Source: Verrucomicrobiota bacterium (GTDB taxonomy: Bacteria > Verrucomicrobiota > Verrucomicrobiia > Chthoniobacterales > UBA10450). Taken from it: a stretch of 43,052 nt of DNA. This document shows positions 34,683 through 41,421 of this stretch, one piece after another (position 1 is the stretch's first letter; each line of letters begins with the position of its first letter). The position numbers and the translations under genes were made by a program. The notes under the pieces are model-generated. The model had not been told where the DNA came from. It saw only the letters and a list, made by a program, of their open reading frames with translations, and did no database searches. Location of the stretch: contig QHNV01000133.1 of assembly GCA_003218535.1 (NCBI GenBank), forward strand, positions 1 to 43,052. Direction: 5' to 3'.

Positions 34683-35837
34683 ATGAATTATTCGCTTATT
34701 TCAAAAGAACTTAGGCCAATCGCCGAAAAAGTTGAGGCGGGTCAGCGAATCTCGGAGACCGATGCGCTCACGCTCTATCGCTCGAGCGACCTGAACGCAT
34801 TGGGAATGATCGCCAACGTTTTGCGTGAGCGAAAAAACGGCAACTACGCGACCTATATCCACAATCGTTACATCAATTACTCCAACGTCTGCATCCTTTC
34901 GTGTCAGTTTTGTGCTTTCGCCGCAAAAAAACGTGACGCGCATGCCTTCGAGTATGCGATCGACGAAATTATCGGCGCGGTCCGGGACGCGTTGTCCCTT
35001 GGAATCACTGAAGTGCACATGGTCGGCGGGCTGCATCCAACTTTAAAGAAAGAGTGGTACCTTGAGCTTTTACGCCGTCTTCGGGCGCTCGATCCCGATC
35101 TCCATATCAAGGCATTCACCGCCATCGAGGTGCGGCATTTTGCGGAGCGGATCTTTCGCATGTCGATCCGCGAAACGCTGGGAACTTTGCGCGAAGCCGG
35201 TCTCGGCTCCATCACCGGCGGCGGCGCGGAGATTTTTGATCCCATTGTGCGCGATAAGATCTGTCGCGGCAAAGAGACCGCCGCCGAGTGGCTCGATGTG
35301 CATCGCACTTGGCATCAAATAGGCGGCCGTAGCACTTGCACCATGCTCTACGGCCATATCGAGACGCTCGCTCAACGCGTCGATCATTTGCGTCAGCTTC
35401 GCGAATTGCAGGATGAGACTGCCGGGTTTACCGGGTTTATTCCATTTGCCTTTGAGCCGTCCCGGTCCCTCGGGATACTCGCCCACATCAAGCGAGCCTC
35501 GGCATTCGAGCAGCTTCGCAATCTCGCCGTGAGTCGCATTTATCTCGATAACATCGACCATCTGACTGCGTACTGGGTCAGTCTCGGCCTGCCTCTCGCG
35601 CAGGTTTCGCTGAGTTACGGTGTGGACGATCTGCACGGTACAATTTTAGAGGAAAAGATCTTTCATATGGCGGGCGCGACTACTCCGCAGCAACAAACAG
35701 TCGCGACGCTCGAACACGCTATCAGGGAAGCCCACCGCGAGCCGGTTCAACGCGACAGTTATTATCGTCACATATCTCAGCGTTCAACGACCGATAAGCG
35801 AACAGCGCCGACGAGAGCTGAACTTGCCTGCGCATAA
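34683..35837 (+). CDS. mqnE: Aminodeoxyfutalosine synthase
   Basis: A 384-residue radical SAM enzyme of the futalosine menaquinone pathway. It joins the chorismate-derived enol ether (3-(1-carboxyvinyloxy)benzoate, from MqnA) to adenosine. The cluster motif is CILSCQFC (Cys70, Cys74, Cys77). Also visible are HMVGGLHP, the SITGGGAEIF segment and SYGVDDLHGTILEE, typical of the MqnE/MqnC group. MqnE rather than MqnC is inferred from details of the sequence and the adjacent mqnA. It abuts mqnA directly. Confidence 0.9.
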   Translation: MNYSLISKELRPIAEKVEAGQRISETDALTLYRSSDLNALGMIANVLRERKNGNYATYIHNRYINYSNVCILSCQFCAFAAKKRDAHAFEYAIDEIIGAVRDALSLGITEVHMVGGLHPTLKKEWYLELLRRLRALDPDLHIKAFTAIEVRHFAERIFRMSIRETLGTLREAGLGSITGGGAEIFDPIVRDKICRGKETAAEWLDVHRTWHQIGGRSTCTMLYGHIETLAQRVDHLRQLRELQDETAGFTGFIPFAFEPSRSLGILAHIKRASAFEQLRNLAVSRIYLDNIDHLTAYWVSLGLPLAQVSLSYGVDDLHGTILEEKIFHMAGATTPQQQTVATLEHAIREAHREPVQRDSYYRHISQRSTTDKRTAPTRAELACA

Positions 35838-35867
35838 ATGGTAGGGCGCGACCGCCGGTTGGGACGA

Positions 35868-36689
35868 ATGCTCCGCGTCGGCTGCGTAAAATATCTCAAC
35901 GCGCGTCCGCTTATTCGAGGCTGGCAGGGTCCAGTGGAATTCGATCACCCATCGGCGCTCTGCAAACGATTGGCGAATGGCGAGCTCGATGTCGCGCTCG
36001 TCTCCAGTTTCGAATTTCTCCGCAACCCGATTTATCGAATCGTCGATGATGTTTCCATTTCGTCGGATGGACCGGTTTTCAGCGTCGTCGTGGCCCATCG
36101 CGGCGAGATTTCCCAAATTGAAGAGATCGAACTCGATCCCGCATCGCAAACCGCGGTCAATCTCCTGCGCTGTTTGCTCGCAGAACTTGGATTAAAGCCA
36201 CGTTTGAAATCTGGCGTTCCGGGGAGCACAGGCTGCCAGCCTGTCGTTGTCGGCAGCTTGCCGACAACCCAGAACGCGCAACTTCTCATCGGCGATCAAG
36301 CCATCTGGTTTCGCCAGAAACACGCGAGCGAATTTCATTTCTGGGATCTCGGCGAACAATGGAAGAAACTTATCGGTCTTCCATTCGTTTACGCGCTCTG
36401 GCTCGTTCGCCCAGAAGTTATCGATCCTAGTCCCATGGCGAACCATCTGCGTGCTTTCCGTGACGAGAATCTTAACAATCTTGACGACTTAACCGCAGAT
36501 GCTGTAGCCGGGGTGGCCGACCCCGGTCTGCGAACGAAATTAGATCGCGAGTTTTTTCTTCGTTATTACCGCAAGCATCTTCGATTCAGCTTTGGAGATA
36601 GGGAACAGAAAGGTCTGCAAACTTTCGCGAACCTCTGCGCAAAGCATGGTCTGCTCCCAAAACGCGATCTCGCGCTCGATCTCGTATAA
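35868..36689 (+). CDS. mqnA: Chorismate dehydratase, carrying two repeat-derived insertions
   Basis: A MqnA of 273 residues if it starts at MLRVGCVKYLNARPL (35868), the family start; the frame also opens at 35838, abutting mqnE. The enzyme dehydrates chorismate, the first menaquinone step in this route. Conserved parts include FDHPSALCKRLANGELDVAL, SSFEFL and IGDQAI. Two stretches do not belong to the family: GSTGCQPVVVGSLPTTQ, encoded by a double-hairpin element at 36221-36268, and AVAGVADPG from a palindrome at 36508-36526. Both keep the frame. Activity is plausible if they lie in surface loops. Confidence 0.88.
   Translation: MLRVGCVKYLNARPLIRGWQGPVEFDHPSALCKRLANGELDVALVSSFEFLRNPIYRIVDDVSISSDGPVFSVVVAHRGEISQIEEIELDPASQTAVNLLRCLLAELGLKPRLKSGVPGSTGCQPVVVGSLPTTQNAQLLIGDQAIWFRQKHASEFHFWDLGEQWKKLIGLPFVYALWLVRPEVIDPSPMANHLRAFRDENLNNLDDLTADAVAGVADPGLRTKLDREFFLRYYRKHLRFSFGDREQKGLQTFANLCAKHGLLPKRDLALDLV
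36221..36268 (+). repeat. 48-nt double-hairpin element inside mqnA
   Basis: The order is GGGGAGC, then the hairpin ACAGGCTG-C-CAGCCTGT (36228-36244), then the hairpin GTTGTCGGCA-GCT-TGCCGACAAC (36246-36268). A second copy lies inverted in recG at 40356-40403, with the same length and 43 of 48 positions alike. The length is a multiple of three and it is read through as protein. Confidence 0.85.
36508..36526. repeat. Palindrome inside mqnA (GTAGCCGGGGT type)
   Basis: CCGGGGT at 36508-36514 pairs with ACCCCGG at 36520-36526 around GGCCG, preceded by GTAG. It is translated as AVAGVADPG within mqnA, in a region where the family is otherwise helical. It is a second kind of palindromic element in the same gene. 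Confidence 0.6.
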
Positions 36690-36722
36690 CGGAATCGATC
36701 TGTCCTGACGGTACAGGGCCAG

Positions 36723-37229
36723 TTAACGTTTTGCCCCGCCCAAACCGAGATCGAGATCGTTGAGTTGCCAACCAGTGTTCGTGAAATGGAATCGGAGCTT
36801 GATTCCTTCGCGATCGACCTCAAAGGAGCGCGGACCTGTGAAGAATGCGTATTTTACTTTTAACCAGTTCACCGTCTTACCTGTAGAGAACTGGAACTGC
36901 TGCGGAGCCTGCAGGTTCTTTAGTGCTCCCGGATTGGAGAGAAGCGCCGCGATACCATCCGGCGTGGCATAAGCATCAACGATCGCGTCGATCAGCGTCG
37001 GGCCGAGGTTGCTCCATCGCTTGTGACTGGTCGTCGCGCGCGCGAACCGAGCCGCGAGTTGCTTCTTCAGTGACGCCCGAACCGCGGGAAAATCGACACG
37101 CGAACCGATCGCCGCGCTATTACCGGACCGTAGCGCAACCGTGAAGCGCCAGAATGAAAAGTACGGCGATGCGCCATAGATGAGCAGAAGAACGACGCAA
37201 ACCAGCACTATCCAGCGGATCAGTCTCAT
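36723..37229 (-). CDS. DUF2939-family membrane-anchored protein
   Basis: A 168-residue protein with an N-terminal hydrophobic anchor (RWIVLVCVVLLLIYGAS). It is followed by SPYFSFWRFTVALRSGNSAA and RVDFPAVRASLKKQLAAR, the hallmark of DUF2939 (S-P-Y, A-x-x-x-x-D, VDFPAVRxSLKxQL). The remainder is a mixed fold ending in HFTNTGWQLNDLDLGL. The function is unknown; members are probably periplasmic. It is convergent with mqnA and divergent from recJ. Confidence 0.8.
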   Translation of the reverse strand: MRLIRWIVLVCVVLLLIYGASPYFSFWRFTVALRSGNSAAIGSRVDFPAVRASLKKQLAARFARATTSHKRWSNLGPTLIDAIVDAYATPDGIAALLSNPGALKNLQAPQQFQFSTGKTVNWLKVKYAFFTGPRSFEVDREGIKLRFHFTNTGWQLNDLDLGLGGAKR

Positions 37230-37368
37230 TTAAAGTTTCGATTCTCGTGAGCGAACATGGAATATCTGTTTATCGGAAATGGTTGCTTGTTCAGTCAAGC
37301 GTAATTGCGAAGCAAATGTGGTGACGCACGGCATCTTGTCAGGAAGTTCTGCGCGAATAAACTGATCG

Positions 37369-39183
37369 GTGCAAAGCCGCGTAGAAGGGAGCCCACTGGG
37401 CTCAGAACCGCCCCGGACATTTACGCGGCAAAGCCGCGTAGAGGGCGAGCTGGTCGATATAAAACCGCGTAGAACATTTACGCGGCAAAGCCGATGGATC
37501 GTTGCGCCGCCTGAAGAGCTCGACGGCGGGCCGATTTCGTGGAATCAAATCTGTGGCTCAGCCTGCATTGCGCGACTGCTGTTGCGCAAAGGCTTTGCGA
37601 ACGCGACGGAGGTGGAAGCGTTTCTGCAACCGCGTCTCAAATCATTAAGGGATCCGTTTTTGCTTCCGAACATGCAGGTGGCCGTCACTCGCGTGCTCGC
37701 GGCGCTTGACCGACATGAGCGTGTTGTTCTGTTCGGAGATTATGATGTAGATGGCGTGACCTCGATTGCACTCCTGGCGGAGACGTTGCGCGCTTACGGT
37801 GGCACTCCTGAATTGTTTTTGCCGTTGCGGATGGAGGAGGGCTACGGATTGAGTCCGGAAAGTGTCGAGCGCTGTCTGGAGGAGCATCACCCTCAACTCT
37901 TGATCGCCTTGGACTGCGGCACGTCGTCTGTGAGTGAGATTGCCGATCTTACGCGACGCGGCGTGGACGCGATTGTTCTTGATCATCATGAGCCGAAATC
38001 CGCGCTGCCCCAATGCGTGGCGATCGTGAATCCGAAAATCGATCCGGAATCGCGGTTTCATTATCTGTGCAGTGTCGGGATTGTTTTCAAACTTTGTCAT
38101 GCCCTTTTGAAAACAAGGCCGCTGCGCGATTTCGATCTCAAATCGAAGCTCGATCTTGTTGCACTGGGCACCGTGGCAGACATCGTGCCGCTGCGTGAAG
38201 AAAATCGCGTTCTGGTGCAGCGCGGCGCGATGGAAATCGGGCGGATGTCGCGTATTGGCCTGGACAAGTTAATGCATGTCGCCGGATTACGGCCGCCCAT
38301 CCTAGCCGCGGACATTGGTTATCGACTCGGGCCGCGATTGAACGCTGCGGGACGTTTGAGCACAGCGGAGAAATCGTTGCGGCTATTGCTCACGCACGAT
38401 GAAGGCGAGGCAGCGGCGCTCGCGACAGAGCTTGACCAGCACAATCGTGAACGTCAGCAGGTGGAACACCAAATCTTCGCTGCAGCCACTGAGATGATCG
38501 ACAAACAGTTTGATGCGACGCAGGACGCGGCCGTTGTGGCAGGCGCGCGCGGCTGGCATCCAGGAGTGCTTGGTATCGTAGCCTCGCGGATCGTTCGAAG
38601 ATATCATCGACCTGCGATTGTGATCGGCTTCGATGACCATGGAGCAGGCAAAGGAAGCGGGCGAAGCATTGAAGGGTTGAACCTGGTTGAGGCGCTATCT
38701 TGTTGTGCAAACACGCTCGACAAATACGGCGGACACGGAATGGCGGCGGGACTAGCGCTGCACGAGGAAAATTTCGATCGTTTTGCGGAAGCATTTTGCA
38801 GCACCGCGCGCGAGCTTCTTTCCGAAGAAGCGTTGGAACCCTGCCTGCGACTGGATTATGAGCTGGCGTTCACGGAGATCGATGTCGAGTTTCTGCGCTG
38901 GCACGAAATGTTGCAGCCGTTTGGAAACGGAAATCCGCAGCCGCTTTTCTTCGCGCGCGCGGTGGAGCCGGTGGCGCCGCCGCGCGTAGCGAATGAAAAA
39001 CATCTGATCTTTCGTCTGCGCCAGGGGGATCGTCATCGCCGCGCCGTTTATTTTGACGGCGTGGCAAATCAATTGCCGGTACCGCCTTGGGACATTGCAT
39101 TCCGCATCGGTGCCGATGAATACGATGGAGAGACATTGGTCGCCATGCACATCGAGGCGGTGCGGAGTGCGGAACGGATCTGA
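37369..39183 (+). CDS. recJ: Single-stranded-DNA-specific exonuclease RecJ, with repeat-derived N-terminus
   Basis: A 604-residue RecJ, the 5'-3' ssDNA exonuclease of RecF-pathway recombination and mismatch repair. DHH-family motifs: GDYDVDG at residues 123-129, LDCGTSS at 181-187 and DHHEP at 205-209; the DHHA1 and OB domains follow. The natural protein should start near RWIVAPPEE (residue 42). No ATG or GTG precedes it in frame except the GTG at 37369, which lies in a 57-nt tandem repeat. The first 41 residues are therefore 19-residue repeat units ending RTFTR. It abuts recG. Confidence 0.93.
   Translation: MQSRVEGSPLGSEPPRTFTRQSRVEGELVDIKPRRTFTRQSRWIVAPPEELDGGPISWNQICGSACIARLLLRKGFANATEVEAFLQPRLKSLRDPFLLPNMQVAVTRVLAALDRHERVVLFGDYDVDGVTSIALLAETLRAYGGTPELFLPLRMEEGYGLSPESVERCLEEHHPQLLIALDCGTSSVSEIADLTRRGVDAIVLDHHEPKSALPQCVAIVNPKIDPESRFHYLCSVGIVFKLCHALLKTRPLRDFDLKSKLDLVALGTVADIVPLREENRVLVQRGAMEIGRMSRIGLDKLMHVAGLRPPILAADIGYRLGPRLNAAGRLSTAEKSLRLLLTHDEGEAAALATELDQHNRERQQVEHQIFAAATEMIDKQFDATQDAAVVAGARGWHPGVLGIVASRIVRRYHRPAIVIGFDDHGAGKGSGRSIEGLNLVEALSCCANTLDKYGGHGMAAGLALHEENFDRFAEAFCSTARELLSEEALEPCLRLDYELAFTEIDVEFLRWHEMLQPFGNGNPQPLFFARAVEPVAPPRVANEKHLIFRLRQGDRHRRAVYFDGVANQLPVPPWDIAFRIGADEYDGETLVAMHIEAVRSAERI
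37372..37493 (+). repeat. 57-nt tandem repeat at the recJ start
   Basis: Units begin at 37372, 37429 and 37486 (the third is cut after three codons). Each starts with CAAAGCCG and ends with ACATTTACGCGG. The join contains the hairpin ACGCGGC-AAA-GCCGCGT at 37423-37439. The period is 19 codons, so every copy reads in frame (QSRVEG...RTFTR). Confidence 0.8.
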
Positions 39184-41421
39184 ATGGGTGAACGACCTAG
39201 ACCAGAAGGGAATGGCGATGGCGAGGACGCCCTCGCTGGGTCGCCGCGGCGACCGCTCGCCAAGAGTATCGAGCTCTCGCACTCACTCGAGGAATTAGAT
39301 CGGATCCCGCGCCCGAAACTCCTCGCACTGCGGCGTCTCGGCATAGAGACCGTGGAAGATTTGCTTACGCATTTCCCCAGGCGTCACGAAGATCGAACGG
39401 AGTTCCCGCATTTTCCGCACGAGGAAAGCGACGTGCCGATTTGTCTTTGCGGTGACGTGATTAAGACTTCGTTGCGGCGTTTTGGCGGGTGGAAGAAAAT
39501 TTTCGAAGCAACACTGCAAGAATCGCAGGCAAATGCTCTGAGCGAACCACTCGTGTGCCGGTGGTTCAATCTGCACTACGTGCAGAAAATGATCGCAACC
39601 GGGCAACGCCTGGTCGTATTCGGCAAACCACGTCTGCGGGGGAAAAGGATTTGCATGGATCATCCGGAGTTCGAGGTCATCGAAAATGATGAGGAGATTT
39701 CGATTCATTTTCGGCGCATCACACCTGTCTATCCTGCAACGGAAGGTCTTTCGCAGCGCGTCTTACGCAGCATCATTTACCGACTGTTGAATGAAATTTC
39801 GGACGCGGAATTGGAAACAAGTGCGCCGAGCAGCTTGGTTCAAGGCACGAGATGGCAGGCGATTCGCGCAATCCATTTTCCGGAAAGCTGGGAAGCGCGT
39901 GATGCTGCTCGGGAGTATCTGGTGCTCTCGGAATTCTTCGCGATGCAGATGCTAATCGCATCCCGACGCTTTGATGCATCGACGCGCGTCGGCCACGTGC
40001 ATTGTGGAAGCGGCGTGTTGCTCAACAAGTTTATCAAGGCGTTACCATTCGAACTAACGGGTGCGCAAGTGAAAGTAATCGCGGAAATTCGTCGGGACCT
40101 TGCGGCGCGTCACCCAATGAACCGTTTGTTGCAGGGCGATGTCGGCTCCGGAAAAACAGTCGTCGCCATAGCAGCGATGCTTCTTGCGATTGAAGCGGGA
40201 TATCAGGCCGCGTTCATGGCACCCACACAAATTCTGGCCGAGCAACATTATGATGTCTTGCGGGGCTGGCTCGAGCCGTTCGGGGCGCATATCGCGCTCC
40301 GAACTGCCGCGCGGCAGGAAGAGACTGGACCCCTGCCGCTCTTCGACGCCCAAGGGTTCGCGGCAAGCTGCCGCGAACAACAGGCTGGCAGCCTGTGCTC
40401 CCCGGAGCGCGCGATCCCGCGCGACGAACCGCAGAGCATCGCGCCAGAAGAACCGCAGATCGTTGTTGGCACGCATGCGGTGCTCTACGAGAATGTGTCG
40501 TTCTCGAATCTCGGGCTCGTTGTGATCGACGAGCAGCATAAATTTGGTGTTGGTCAACGCGCCAAATTGACCTCGCGCGAGCCGGCGCCGGACGTGCTGG
40601 TGATGACCGCCACGCCAATCCCGCGCACACTGACGATGACCATCTACGGCGACCTCGATGTCTCGGTTATTGATGAGATGCCACGCAATCGCGGACGGAT
40701 CATTACCGCCGTGCGCGATGCATCGAACCTGGCCGAAGTCCTCAGCTTTTTGCGGACACAATTGGAAGCTGGCCACCAGCTTTACGTGATTTATCCGCTG
40801 ATCGATGAAAGCGAAAAACTGGATGTCAAAGCAGCTTCGGCCGAGTACGAGTTGTGGAAGGAGCGATTGCACCCGTATCGCTGCGAATTACTTCACGGTC
40901 GCATTCCTGCGCCGGAAAAGCAGGAAATCATGGAACGCTTTCGACGGGGGGAGGCTAATGCTTTGATTAGCACTACGGTGATCGAAGTCGGAGTCGATGT
41001 CCCAAACGCGACCGCGATGTTGGTAGAAAATGCGGAGCGTTTCGGGTTGGCGCAGCTCCATCAACTCCGCGGCCGGATCGGCCGTGGCGGACACAAGTCG
41101 TATTGCATTTTGTTAACGTCGGATCAACAGAGGGAGACATCAGCAAAGCTTGCTGTATTGGAAAAAACGAGCAACGGCTTCGAGGTGGCCGAAGCAGATT
41201 GGGAGTTACGTGGCCCGGGCGATCTGCTCGGCACCGCGCAAAGCGGCTTGCCGGCGCTTAAGATTGGCGATTTGAAGAAGGACGCAGATTTGATGCGACG
41301 CGCGCGTGCGGCGGCACTGGCGATCTTCGAGGCGGACCCGGGCTTGGAGTTGCCTGAGAATCAACGTTTCCAGCGTTTAATTGTCGAACAACAGGGACGG
41401 ACTTTTTCGAACGTTAGCTGA
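39184..41421 (+). CDS. recG: ATP-dependent DNA helicase RecG, with repeat-derived insertions
   Basis: A 745-residue RecG, which regresses stalled forks and moves branches. It has a wedge OB domain at about 60-180, Walker A GDVGSGKT at 318-325, DEQH at 449-452, and motif VI in QLHQLRGRIGRGGH. Between TAARQEE (residue 380) and PQIVVGTHA (424) is about 40 extra residues, 16 of them (391-406) encoded by the inverted 48-nt double hairpin. The first 28 residues (PEGNGDGEDALAGSPRRP) come from palindromic DNA at 39221-39261. It abuts recJ, and the stop overlaps the protease gene by 1 nt. Confidence 0.93.
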   Translation: MGERPRPEGNGDGEDALAGSPRRPLAKSIELSHSLEELDRIPRPKLLALRRLGIETVEDLLTHFPRRHEDRTEFPHFPHEESDVPICLCGDVIKTSLRRFGGWKKIFEATLQESQANALSEPLVCRWFNLHYVQKMIATGQRLVVFGKPRLRGKRICMDHPEFEVIENDEEISIHFRRITPVYPATEGLSQRVLRSIIYRLLNEISDAELETSAPSSLVQGTRWQAIRAIHFPESWEARDAAREYLVLSEFFAMQMLIASRRFDASTRVGHVHCGSGVLLNKFIKALPFELTGAQVKVIAEIRRDLAARHPMNRLLQGDVGSGKTVVAIAAMLLAIEAGYQAAFMAPTQILAEQHYDVLRGWLEPFGAHIALRTAARQEETGPLPLFDAQGFAASCREQQAGSLCSPERAIPRDEPQSIAPEEPQIVVGTHAVLYENVSFSNLGLVVIDEQHKFGVGQRAKLTSREPAPDVLVMTATPIPRTLTMTIYGDLDVSVIDEMPRNRGRIITAVRDASNLAEVLSFLRTQLEAGHQLYVIYPLIDESEKLDVKAASAEYELWKERLHPYRCELLHGRIPAPEKQEIMERFRRGEANALISTTVIEVGVDVPNATAMLVENAERFGLAQLHQLRGRIGRGGHKSYCILLTSDQQRETSAKLAVLEKTSNGFEVAEADWELRGPGDLLGTAQSGLPALKIGDLKKDADLMRRARAAALAIFEADPGLELPENQRFQRLIVEQQGRTFSNVS
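39221..39261. repeat. Palindromes in the 5' end of recG
   Basis: GCGAGG-ACGC-CCTCGC at 39221-39236 and the perfect palindrome GGTCGCCGCGGCGACC at 39239-39254 lie in the first 26 codons, before the family-like part of RecG (SIELSHSLEELDRIP). They are probably another inserted element that became the N-terminus. Confidence 0.5.
40356..40403 (-). repeat. 48-nt double-hairpin element inside recG (inverted copy)
   Basis: Hairpin GTTCGCGGCA-AGC-TGCCGCGAAC at 40356-40378, then ACAGGCTG-G-CAGCCTGT at 40380-40396, then GCTCCCC. It is the reverse complement of the mqnA element, with paired changes in the longer stem. Confidence 0.85.

Follow-up and report, generated by a model that had tools for sequence, protein, structure and literature searches.

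The closest described systems are the REPtrons, in which REPs are associated with a RAYT transposase, as in E. coli (TnpAREP), Pseudomonas and Stenotrophomonas. Their REPs share a 5′ tetranucleotide tag and form head-to-head pairs, and the RAYT gene, with its HUH and Tyr motifs, lies between inverted REPs. The norm for a REP is a single hairpin of about 20-40 nt in mostly extragenic DNA. Inteins and homing elements occupy recurrent, patchy, in-frame sites in conserved housekeeping genes. The Rickettsia palindromic elements are in-frame palindromes without a cognate transposase, and we know of no relation between them and RAYTs. Intragenic repeats have also been published: the accessible portions of the papers concerned describe palindromic repeats in frame within unrelated genes of Rickettsia (PMC10969869), intragenic REPs and REP dimers of Opitutus terrae and others, many of them in DNA repair genes and with a proposed role as flexible linkers (Di Nocera 2013; PMC3733652), and REPs inserted in frame within the tnpAREP gene itself in TnpAREP subclass 2.4 (PMC6006769). 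The available part of the last of these also states that unexpectedly long proteins were discarded as fusions or annotation errors.

The window analysed here is the whole 43,052-nt stretch of contig QHNV01000133.1 from a Verrucomicrobiota bacterium, and it contains two copies of a 48-nt unit (family R1), one in mqnA and one in recG. In all probability this unit is a REP, namely the end hairpin pair of a Verrucomicrobiota RAYT (Y1 HUH) transposon, lying in frame in housekeeping genes. It shares with the REPtrons the 5′ tag (here GGAG, which we take to be a REP tag), the head-to-head pairs and, in recG of three related genomes (G013, G032 and G028), a RAYT gene with HUH and Tyr motifs between inverted units. 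It differs in that two hairpins are packed into each 48-nt unit, and we therefore report R1 as a REP variant and not as an ordinary REP. The transposase frame of this clade differs further from that of the REPtrons: inside the element it has no stop and nearly always lacks an ATG, and it is embedded in frame in housekeeping genes. Whereas Rickettsia palindromic elements are about 150 bp long, the R1 unit measures 48 nt and has an autonomous form, the cognate RAYT elements. For Opitutus terrae, the accessible text describes intragenic REPs only and no whole in-frame RAYT (PMC3733652), whereas here the whole RAYT lies in the host gene; similarly, TnpAREP subclass 2.4 carries REPs within its transposase gene, as far as the available text goes, whereas here a REP-flanked transposase gene lies within a host gene. 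Intragenic REPs, including those of Verrucomicrobia, are known (PMC3733652). A whole in-frame RAYT element in housekeeping genes, without its own start or stop, was not found in print in the literature searched, nor was any RAYT gene in frame inside host genes; that literature included the accessible part of PMC3686654, with subscription papers and preprints mostly outside reach.

The 48-nt unit, its family and its host genes

The features of the window that bear on the argument are as follows.

35838..36689, + strand: host gene mqnA (chorismate dehydratase), identified by Pfam VitK2_biosynth and chorismate dehydratase structures
36221..36268, + strand: two-hairpin, GGAG-tagged unit of family R1 in mqnA, a probable REP, translated as GSTGCQPVVVGSLPTT in the frame of the left end of RAYT elements
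36228..36244, + strand: hairpin 1 of the mqnA unit, ACAGGCTG-C-CAGCCTGT, from a pattern search and pair counts
36246..36268, + strand: hairpin 2 of the mqnA unit, GTTGTCGGCA-GCT-TGCCGACAAC, whose outer pairs covary among copies
36504..36526, + strand: second, different hairpin in frame in mqnA, GTAG-tagged, GTAGCCGGGGT-GGCCG-ACCCCGG (GTAGCCGGGGTGGCCGACCCCGG), from a pattern search
39184..41421, + strand: host gene recG, identified by RecG wedge, helicase and C-terminal models
40356..40403, - strand: unit of family R1 in recG, likewise a probable REP, translated as CREQQAGSLCSP on the recG strand

Read directly, the mqnA unit consists of GGGGAGC, ACAGGCTG/C/CAGCCTGT, a spacer and GTTGTCGGCA/GCT/TGCCGACAAC. 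Both host open reading frames run through their units (mqnA 283 aa, recG 745 aa), as the sequence-only reading had proposed in placing the unit in frame in genes, and in the alignment with 1gm5 the helicase sequence before the recG unit ends at residue 454 and that after it resumes at 473. That reading was also right about the comparison of the two copies, which are identical at 43 of 48 positions and differ at one spacer base and at two compensated base pairs of the longer hairpin. The wider match between the genes has arms at 36209-36270 and 40354-40415 that are 87% complementary in a repeat search of the window. The possibility that the peptide, and not the structure, is what is kept was rejected on two grounds: the window copies are translated from opposite strands, and the family shows covariation. 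Rfam models run on positions 35800-41000, the part of the window with solo units only, gave two matches, both outside the units and far below their gathering scores (24.9 bits against 196, E 0.00078; 18.6 against 58.7). Elsewhere in the window, a 31-nt direct repeat (87% identical, 37406-37436 and 37463-37493, 57 nt start to start) lies near the start of recJ.

In what follows, G000 denotes the window's own genome, a 2.69-Mb draft that is 90% complete; other G numbers denote related genomes, L numbers loci and C numbers contigs of the own genome. The sequence-only reading had suggested a dispersed, apparently mobile family, and searches of this genome and its relatives bear that out. The hairpin-1 pattern ACAGGCTGN{1,20}CAGCCTGT occurs at five sites in the own genome and the reversed control at none, while blastn with 60 nt found 20 places at E<0.01 and 24 when the limit was relaxed to E≤10. 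A covariance model built from own copies gave 63 own matches at E≤1 (best E 2.6e-19), some of which are one copy counted on both strands; at E≤0.01 it matched all 35 genus genomes and 48 of 58 relatives overall, some with only two matches. The R1 consensus is (T)CT-GGGGAGC-ACAGGCTG-C-CAGCCTGT-N, followed by six variable bases, GGCA-GCT-TGCC and six complementary bases. Across the units and element ends examined, GGGGAG or GGGTAG precedes the hairpins. Inverted pairs, with starts about 80-100 nt apart, hold 18 of the 24 strong own units (at least 50 bits); such pairs lie on C206, C251, C22 (two), C32, C42, C229, C116 and C162.

Conservation of structure, also claimed from the sequence alone, is confirmed by covariation among 21 aligned own copies, with the caution that the tested structure came from the tested sequences themselves. 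Paired cells make up 93.0% against 81.2 ± 1.1 after shuffling, 40 cells have both sides changed against 10.6 ± 2.8, and the score for covariation reaches 0.360 against 0.143 ± 0.016, with slid controls at no more than 0.116. Two further counts are weaker: eight double-changed pairs against 5.8 (30 of 500 shuffles as high) and 21 further pair types against 17.8 (16 of 500). Each helix is about 92-94% paired, and double changes fall in six of the ten pairs of the second helix. Freedom from stops in the six frames is in only moderate excess (15-19 of 21 units against 12.6-13.0 in shuffled sequences). Of the 24 strong own units, 22 could be placed on a locus and two of these, in mqnA and recG, are deep in a clearly conserved gene; the other 20, judged by open reading frame and position alone and not by homology searches, lie outside clear conserved-gene interiors. 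Because only two of the 22 are so placed, the genic location, although real, does not look like the main habit of R1 in this genome.

The gene mqnA was matched in 32 of 35 genus genomes, and 27 orthologs were aligned. The loop between LGLNPRL and ARLLIGDQA is an insertion hot spot: R1 units occur there in G000, G007, G022 and G026, and in disrupted form in G010; other repeats, recognised by eye, fill it in G032, G030, G013, G020, G001, G003 and G011; and it is short in G023, G002, G008 and G012. Between the units of G000 and G007, the second hairpin shows compensated changes. The site is empty or differently filled in most relatives, and neither a segment carried in mqnA by all relatives nor an absence of further copies, either of which would have spoken against a mobile repeat, was found. 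The GTAG-tagged hairpin further along mqnA, which we read as a second REP in this gene, has four pattern matches in the own genome and none with the reversed control. An insert resembling it (AVAGVGDPG...) is present in some mqnA orthologs and missing in others.

RAYT genes between R1 units

In recG of G013 and G032, two inverted R1 units 567 nt apart flank a RAYT gene that forms one frame with RecG (ORFs of 875 and 878 aa) and bears the motifs HVHLLIEP and YITRNPWDAG; G028 has the same arrangement plus a third, weaker unit. Y1_Tnp scores above the Pfam cut-off of 23 within two of these RecG proteins (24.3 and 27.5). The RAYT site is the loop between LPLF and EPQIIVGTHAL, which is the position of the window's solo recG unit. 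In recG of G032 and G028, the RAYT insertion has a right end that matches that unit at all 48 bases, and with the edges included the identity spans 51 and 53 bases. Among all loci compared, the 48 bases occur only in recG of these two genomes and of the own genome, the nearest being recG of G013 (47 of 48), with other own copies at 45 or fewer. Going by this sequence comparison, the window's recG unit may be the right end that remained after the rest of an element was lost.

No recG was found in G008, and the site could be read in the other 34 of the 35 genus genomes. It holds a RAYT in 17 (15 full cores and two cut by a contig end, in G027 and G033), a gene-less pair in one (G026), the solo unit in one (the own genome) and is empty or near-empty in 15. 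Stop-to-stop frames uncut by a contig end measure 895-983 aa in RAYT-bearing recG, with the exception of G017, and 705-752 aa in most empty recG. Host frames are broken in G017, past its insert (832 aa), and in G016, at an empty site; single TGA codons occur in the recG matches of G006, G005 and G025. G021 and G022 each have an additional contig with an empty recG, perhaps through contamination.

The draft own genome, 90% complete, yielded no R1-type RAYT: its sole close RAYT lies in metH and has other ends, and none of six own-genome Y1_Tnp loci has an R1 unit nearby by the strict pattern. With a looser covariance model, R1-like units (50.7 and 38.9 bits) appear around the metH-borne RAYT, which has its own end type. 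A nameless palindromic element of the Rickettsia type had been the original interpretation. A rival reading of this kind has a free-standing element moved by an unrelated, unknown enzyme, with no RAYT behind it; the solo in-frame copies in mqnA and recG and the lack of a cognate RAYT in the own draft genome speak for it. However, R1 units bound RAYT genes on both sides in relatives, one such end matches the recG unit exactly, and the best R1 copies are commonest where a cognate RAYT is present. We consider a free-standing palindrome very unlikely, and this part of the earlier interpretation, which as a whole is partly supported, gives way to a unit that is the end of a RAYT element and is mostly paired as a REPIN. 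As regards copy number, the five genomes in which the only R1-type RAYT found lies in recG (G013, G032, G028, G030, where it is mixed, and G027, where it is cut) hold 91 of the best 150 listed R1 copies against a mean of 21.4 for a random five of 35, a value reached in 2 of 20,000 random draws, with labels picked after the fact and the five genomes related. The excess is weaker when all R1 matches are counted: the five genomes hold 260 of 1021, where random sets average 146, and 361 of 20,000 draws reach that number. The excess fits a working embedded enzyme, as a correlation in few, related genomes.

Other housekeeping genes carry RAYTs too. Within the genus, a RAYT-core profile (A2) found strong members in alaS, recG and two sites of metH; members in tsaC and carB are more distant, and a few are stand-alone. 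In named genomes the RAYT profile gave 80 loci, 78 from Verrucomicrobiota or its subgroups, one labelled only 'bacterium' and one from Armatimonadetes; by their record titles, all but one are MAGs. A host gene holds the RAYT at 70 of the 80 (recG 38, alaS 13, metH 9, thrS 6, carB 3, priA 1), and the remaining ten are stand-alone, broken (L309) or distant (L310). In 69 of the 70 in-gene loci the frame is unbroken through the on-contig part of the RAYT core, the exception being L308 in carB; host frames end early at L239, L300 and L304. Pfam confirmed one example each of thrS, priA, alaS, carB, tsaC and metH, with Y1_Tnp over its cut-off in each, and the other thrS loci were assigned by reading. 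The recurrent in-frame sites are loops or linkers of recG, alaS, metH, thrS, carB and priA, and of tsaC for a related clade.

Among family models, NCBIfam REP_Tyr_transpos (NF047646, cut-off 80) scores the metH copy at 91.7 bits and the recG R1-clade RAYT at 75.5. IS200/IS605 elements have a TnpA of IS200 type and often a TnpB; with NF033573, as a test for this group, the metH copy reaches 21.3 bits against a cut-off of 55; the Y1_Tnp domain is present. The only solved structure matching the RAYT at E≤0.01 is TnpAREP 4er8. The idea that all RAYTs of the phylum are embedded was discarded: 12 of the 150 best listed NCBIfam matches, from 288 genomes and with hand-copied lengths, lie in frames of at least 500 aa, in contrast to 70 of 80 loci of the present clade in frames of at least 400 aa.

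Assembly chimeras or dying pseudogenes could in principle produce such fusions, given that nearly all contigs are from MAGs and that some loci are broken (L308, L309, G017). We give this explanation hardly any credence, in that many MAGs from several orders share these junctions and the elements have mostly open frames, signs of purifying selection and inverted ends.

Several observations concern particular hosts. The own metH (C205, L135:1537-6393:-) is a 1619-aa frame in which the RAYT lies between the homocysteine and pterin domains, surrounded by methionine-synthase domains, with a further repeat insert before the activation domain. A distant RAYT clade is in frame in tsaC (L203, L204) and in carB, between its two halves (L205, L222, L223, L225-L228); this clade has other translatable ends, for example TGILPVGQAGVSPA and DLQSVRPAGLQP...GRTGHSPMF. 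The stand-alone RAYTs L216-L220, L277, L280 and L299 lie between codirectional genes, at the same places in several genomes, and their neighbours look, by eye, like members of a pilus or type II secretion gene cluster.

Open frames and a possible mechanism

R1 units occur in three settings: singly, in head-to-head pairs (REPINs), and at the two ends of a RAYT element of about 610 nt. An inverted repeat scored above the top shuffled score at all 70 loci with a core of at least 130 residues and enough flank (62 in genes and eight stand-alone), and most printed arms start with or near GGGGAG or GGGTAG and contain two palindromes. Swapped ends of different loci also exceed the shuffle maximum in 188 of 302 cases (their median is 31 and their 95% point 56, whereas the observed ends have a median of 58); the ends of different loci are interrelated and the test is therefore no proof of cognate pairing.

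Both exact tags were found in 55 of 76 cores of at least 130 residues, and none of these 55 elements, six stand-alone ones included, has a stop in the RAYT frame between one end and the other. This figure is partly a matter of row selection because it leaves out the 21 cores without an exact tag, shorter cores and the broken L308 (carB) and L309 (stand-alone). The stand-alone L299 seems shifted near its end. The tag phase is the same in 53 of 55 (G-GGx-AGC, read Gly-Ser), which keeps the TAG of GGGTAG from being read as a stop. Between left tag and core, 53 of 55 have no in-frame ATG and 33 no ATG, GTG or TTG; a possible start of one of these kinds precedes the core in 22. For the six stand-alone copies, an ATG lies in the preceding flank in five and the stop lies beyond the element in all six. 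Thirty RAYT loci of the phylum, taken from the general NCBIfam model, served as a control, of which 29 were used and one was missed by the A2 profile. With a wider Met window, and with inverted repeats not confirmed as REPs, 25 of the 29 have a Met near the start and 14 of the 18 with an inverted repeat have the stop inside, and the four that do not include the own metH copy. RAYTs outside this group thus mostly carry a start and stop of their own, and the open design belongs to particular clades, as follows from these controls and from how few matches of the general model sit in long frames.

An insert that is removed from RNA or protein, either an IStron-like intron or an intein, would leave the host protein normal, and recurrent sites in conserved genes do resemble those of introns and inteins. 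An intron, however, needs no open frame, yet all 55 elements with both tags are open, and no intein domain is among the Pfam matches of the eight fusions scanned; removal by splicing is accordingly most improbable. Embedded RAYTs are like inteins in their recurrent, patchy in-frame sites and differ in showing no splicing domain, in using a Y1 HUH enzyme and in occupying sites that look like variable loops or linkers.

We lean towards a transposon without start or stop that is maintained as an internal domain, such that a working HUH transposase fused within a loop of RecG, AlaS, ThrS, MetH or CarB spreads REPs, in the manner of an intein without splicing. The host gene would provide the start and stop for the transposase frame, and the host protein would therefore contain the transposase as an internal domain. 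E. coli TnpAREP, according to the accessible part of its description, recognises the single-stranded REP through GTAG and the hairpin and cuts at the adjacent CT (PMC8266576). By analogy, the chemistry of R1 and its RAYT may be the same, in which case the RAYT would cut single-stranded REP hairpins beside CT and paste the units elsewhere. Of 21 aligned units, 11 have CT immediately 5′ of the tag; both window copies have CC at this place. Within genes, only right-frame insertions in tolerant loops would be expected to survive. Selection on the host gene would remove stops and frameshifts from the element, while the RAYT's own selection would keep its residues. The mqnA unit would then be a solo copy read in the left-end frame.

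If this is true, a mobile element can persist in essential genes as a tolerated protein domain, without splicing out, while its host gene protects it against decay through nonsense and frameshift mutations. This would account for odd peptide inserts in Verrucomicrobiota proteins (GSTGCQPVV..., GSARVSRAGDG...), suggest that palindromic in-frame inserts originate as deletion remnants of such elements, and add a route of protein evolution. A direct test would be whether a transposase works when fused to RecG or to an aminoacyl-tRNA synthetase.

Selection and turnover of embedded RAYTs

In one clade of recG-borne RAYTs, the closest non-identical pairs have dN/dS of 0.065-0.11, and their synonymous divergence is high. 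When all pairs are averaged, pN/pS is 0.28 in the RAYT and 0.14 in the downstream part of recG. The catalytic residues are almost completely kept (H59 in 75 of 77, H61 in 77 of 77 and Y129 in 74 of 77). The RAYTs group by host gene, with 18 changes against a shuffled mean of 36.7 and none of 200 shuffles as low, and supported branches force at least two changes each for alaS and thrS. For 32 genus rows, the state of the recG site needs at least 11 changes on the host tree against 11.0 when shuffled and is thus not clustered; a single ancient, vertically inherited recG insertion is unsupported in the genus. Distances between hosts show a weak correlation with those between RAYTs across 23 recG loci (r 0.30, a value reached in 18 of 2000 permutations). 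Some closest recG pairs, in which RAYT and host have similar synonymous divergence, fit vertical descent, whereas L236 and L270 have recG hosts 0.03 apart and RAYTs of different clades 0.43 apart.

Taken together, these data bear on whether the embedded RAYT is instead a domesticated, immobile domain that serves RecG, AlaS, ThrS or MetH and is inherited with the gene. The dN/dS of about 0.1 in close pairs, the retention of catalytic residues, the grouping by host gene and the like synonymous divergence of RAYT and recG in many closest pairs are all compatible with domestication. It remains an unlikely reading in view of the 15 of 34 genus genomes with an empty or near-empty recG site, the different RAYT clades in near-identical recG hosts, and the forced changes for alaS and for thrS. 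The mobile, embedded transposon that we prefer agrees with a recG site that, from these sequence patterns, is often filled, emptied and swapped, through transposition or allele exchange; because the site state is unclustered on the tree, allele recombination and repeated transposition are indistinguishable. A composite insert in recG of G030 (L130) comprises a repeat pair, a further end unit and a mixed RAYT, whose front looks like the R1 clade and whose back like another clade, which suggests recombination between elements.
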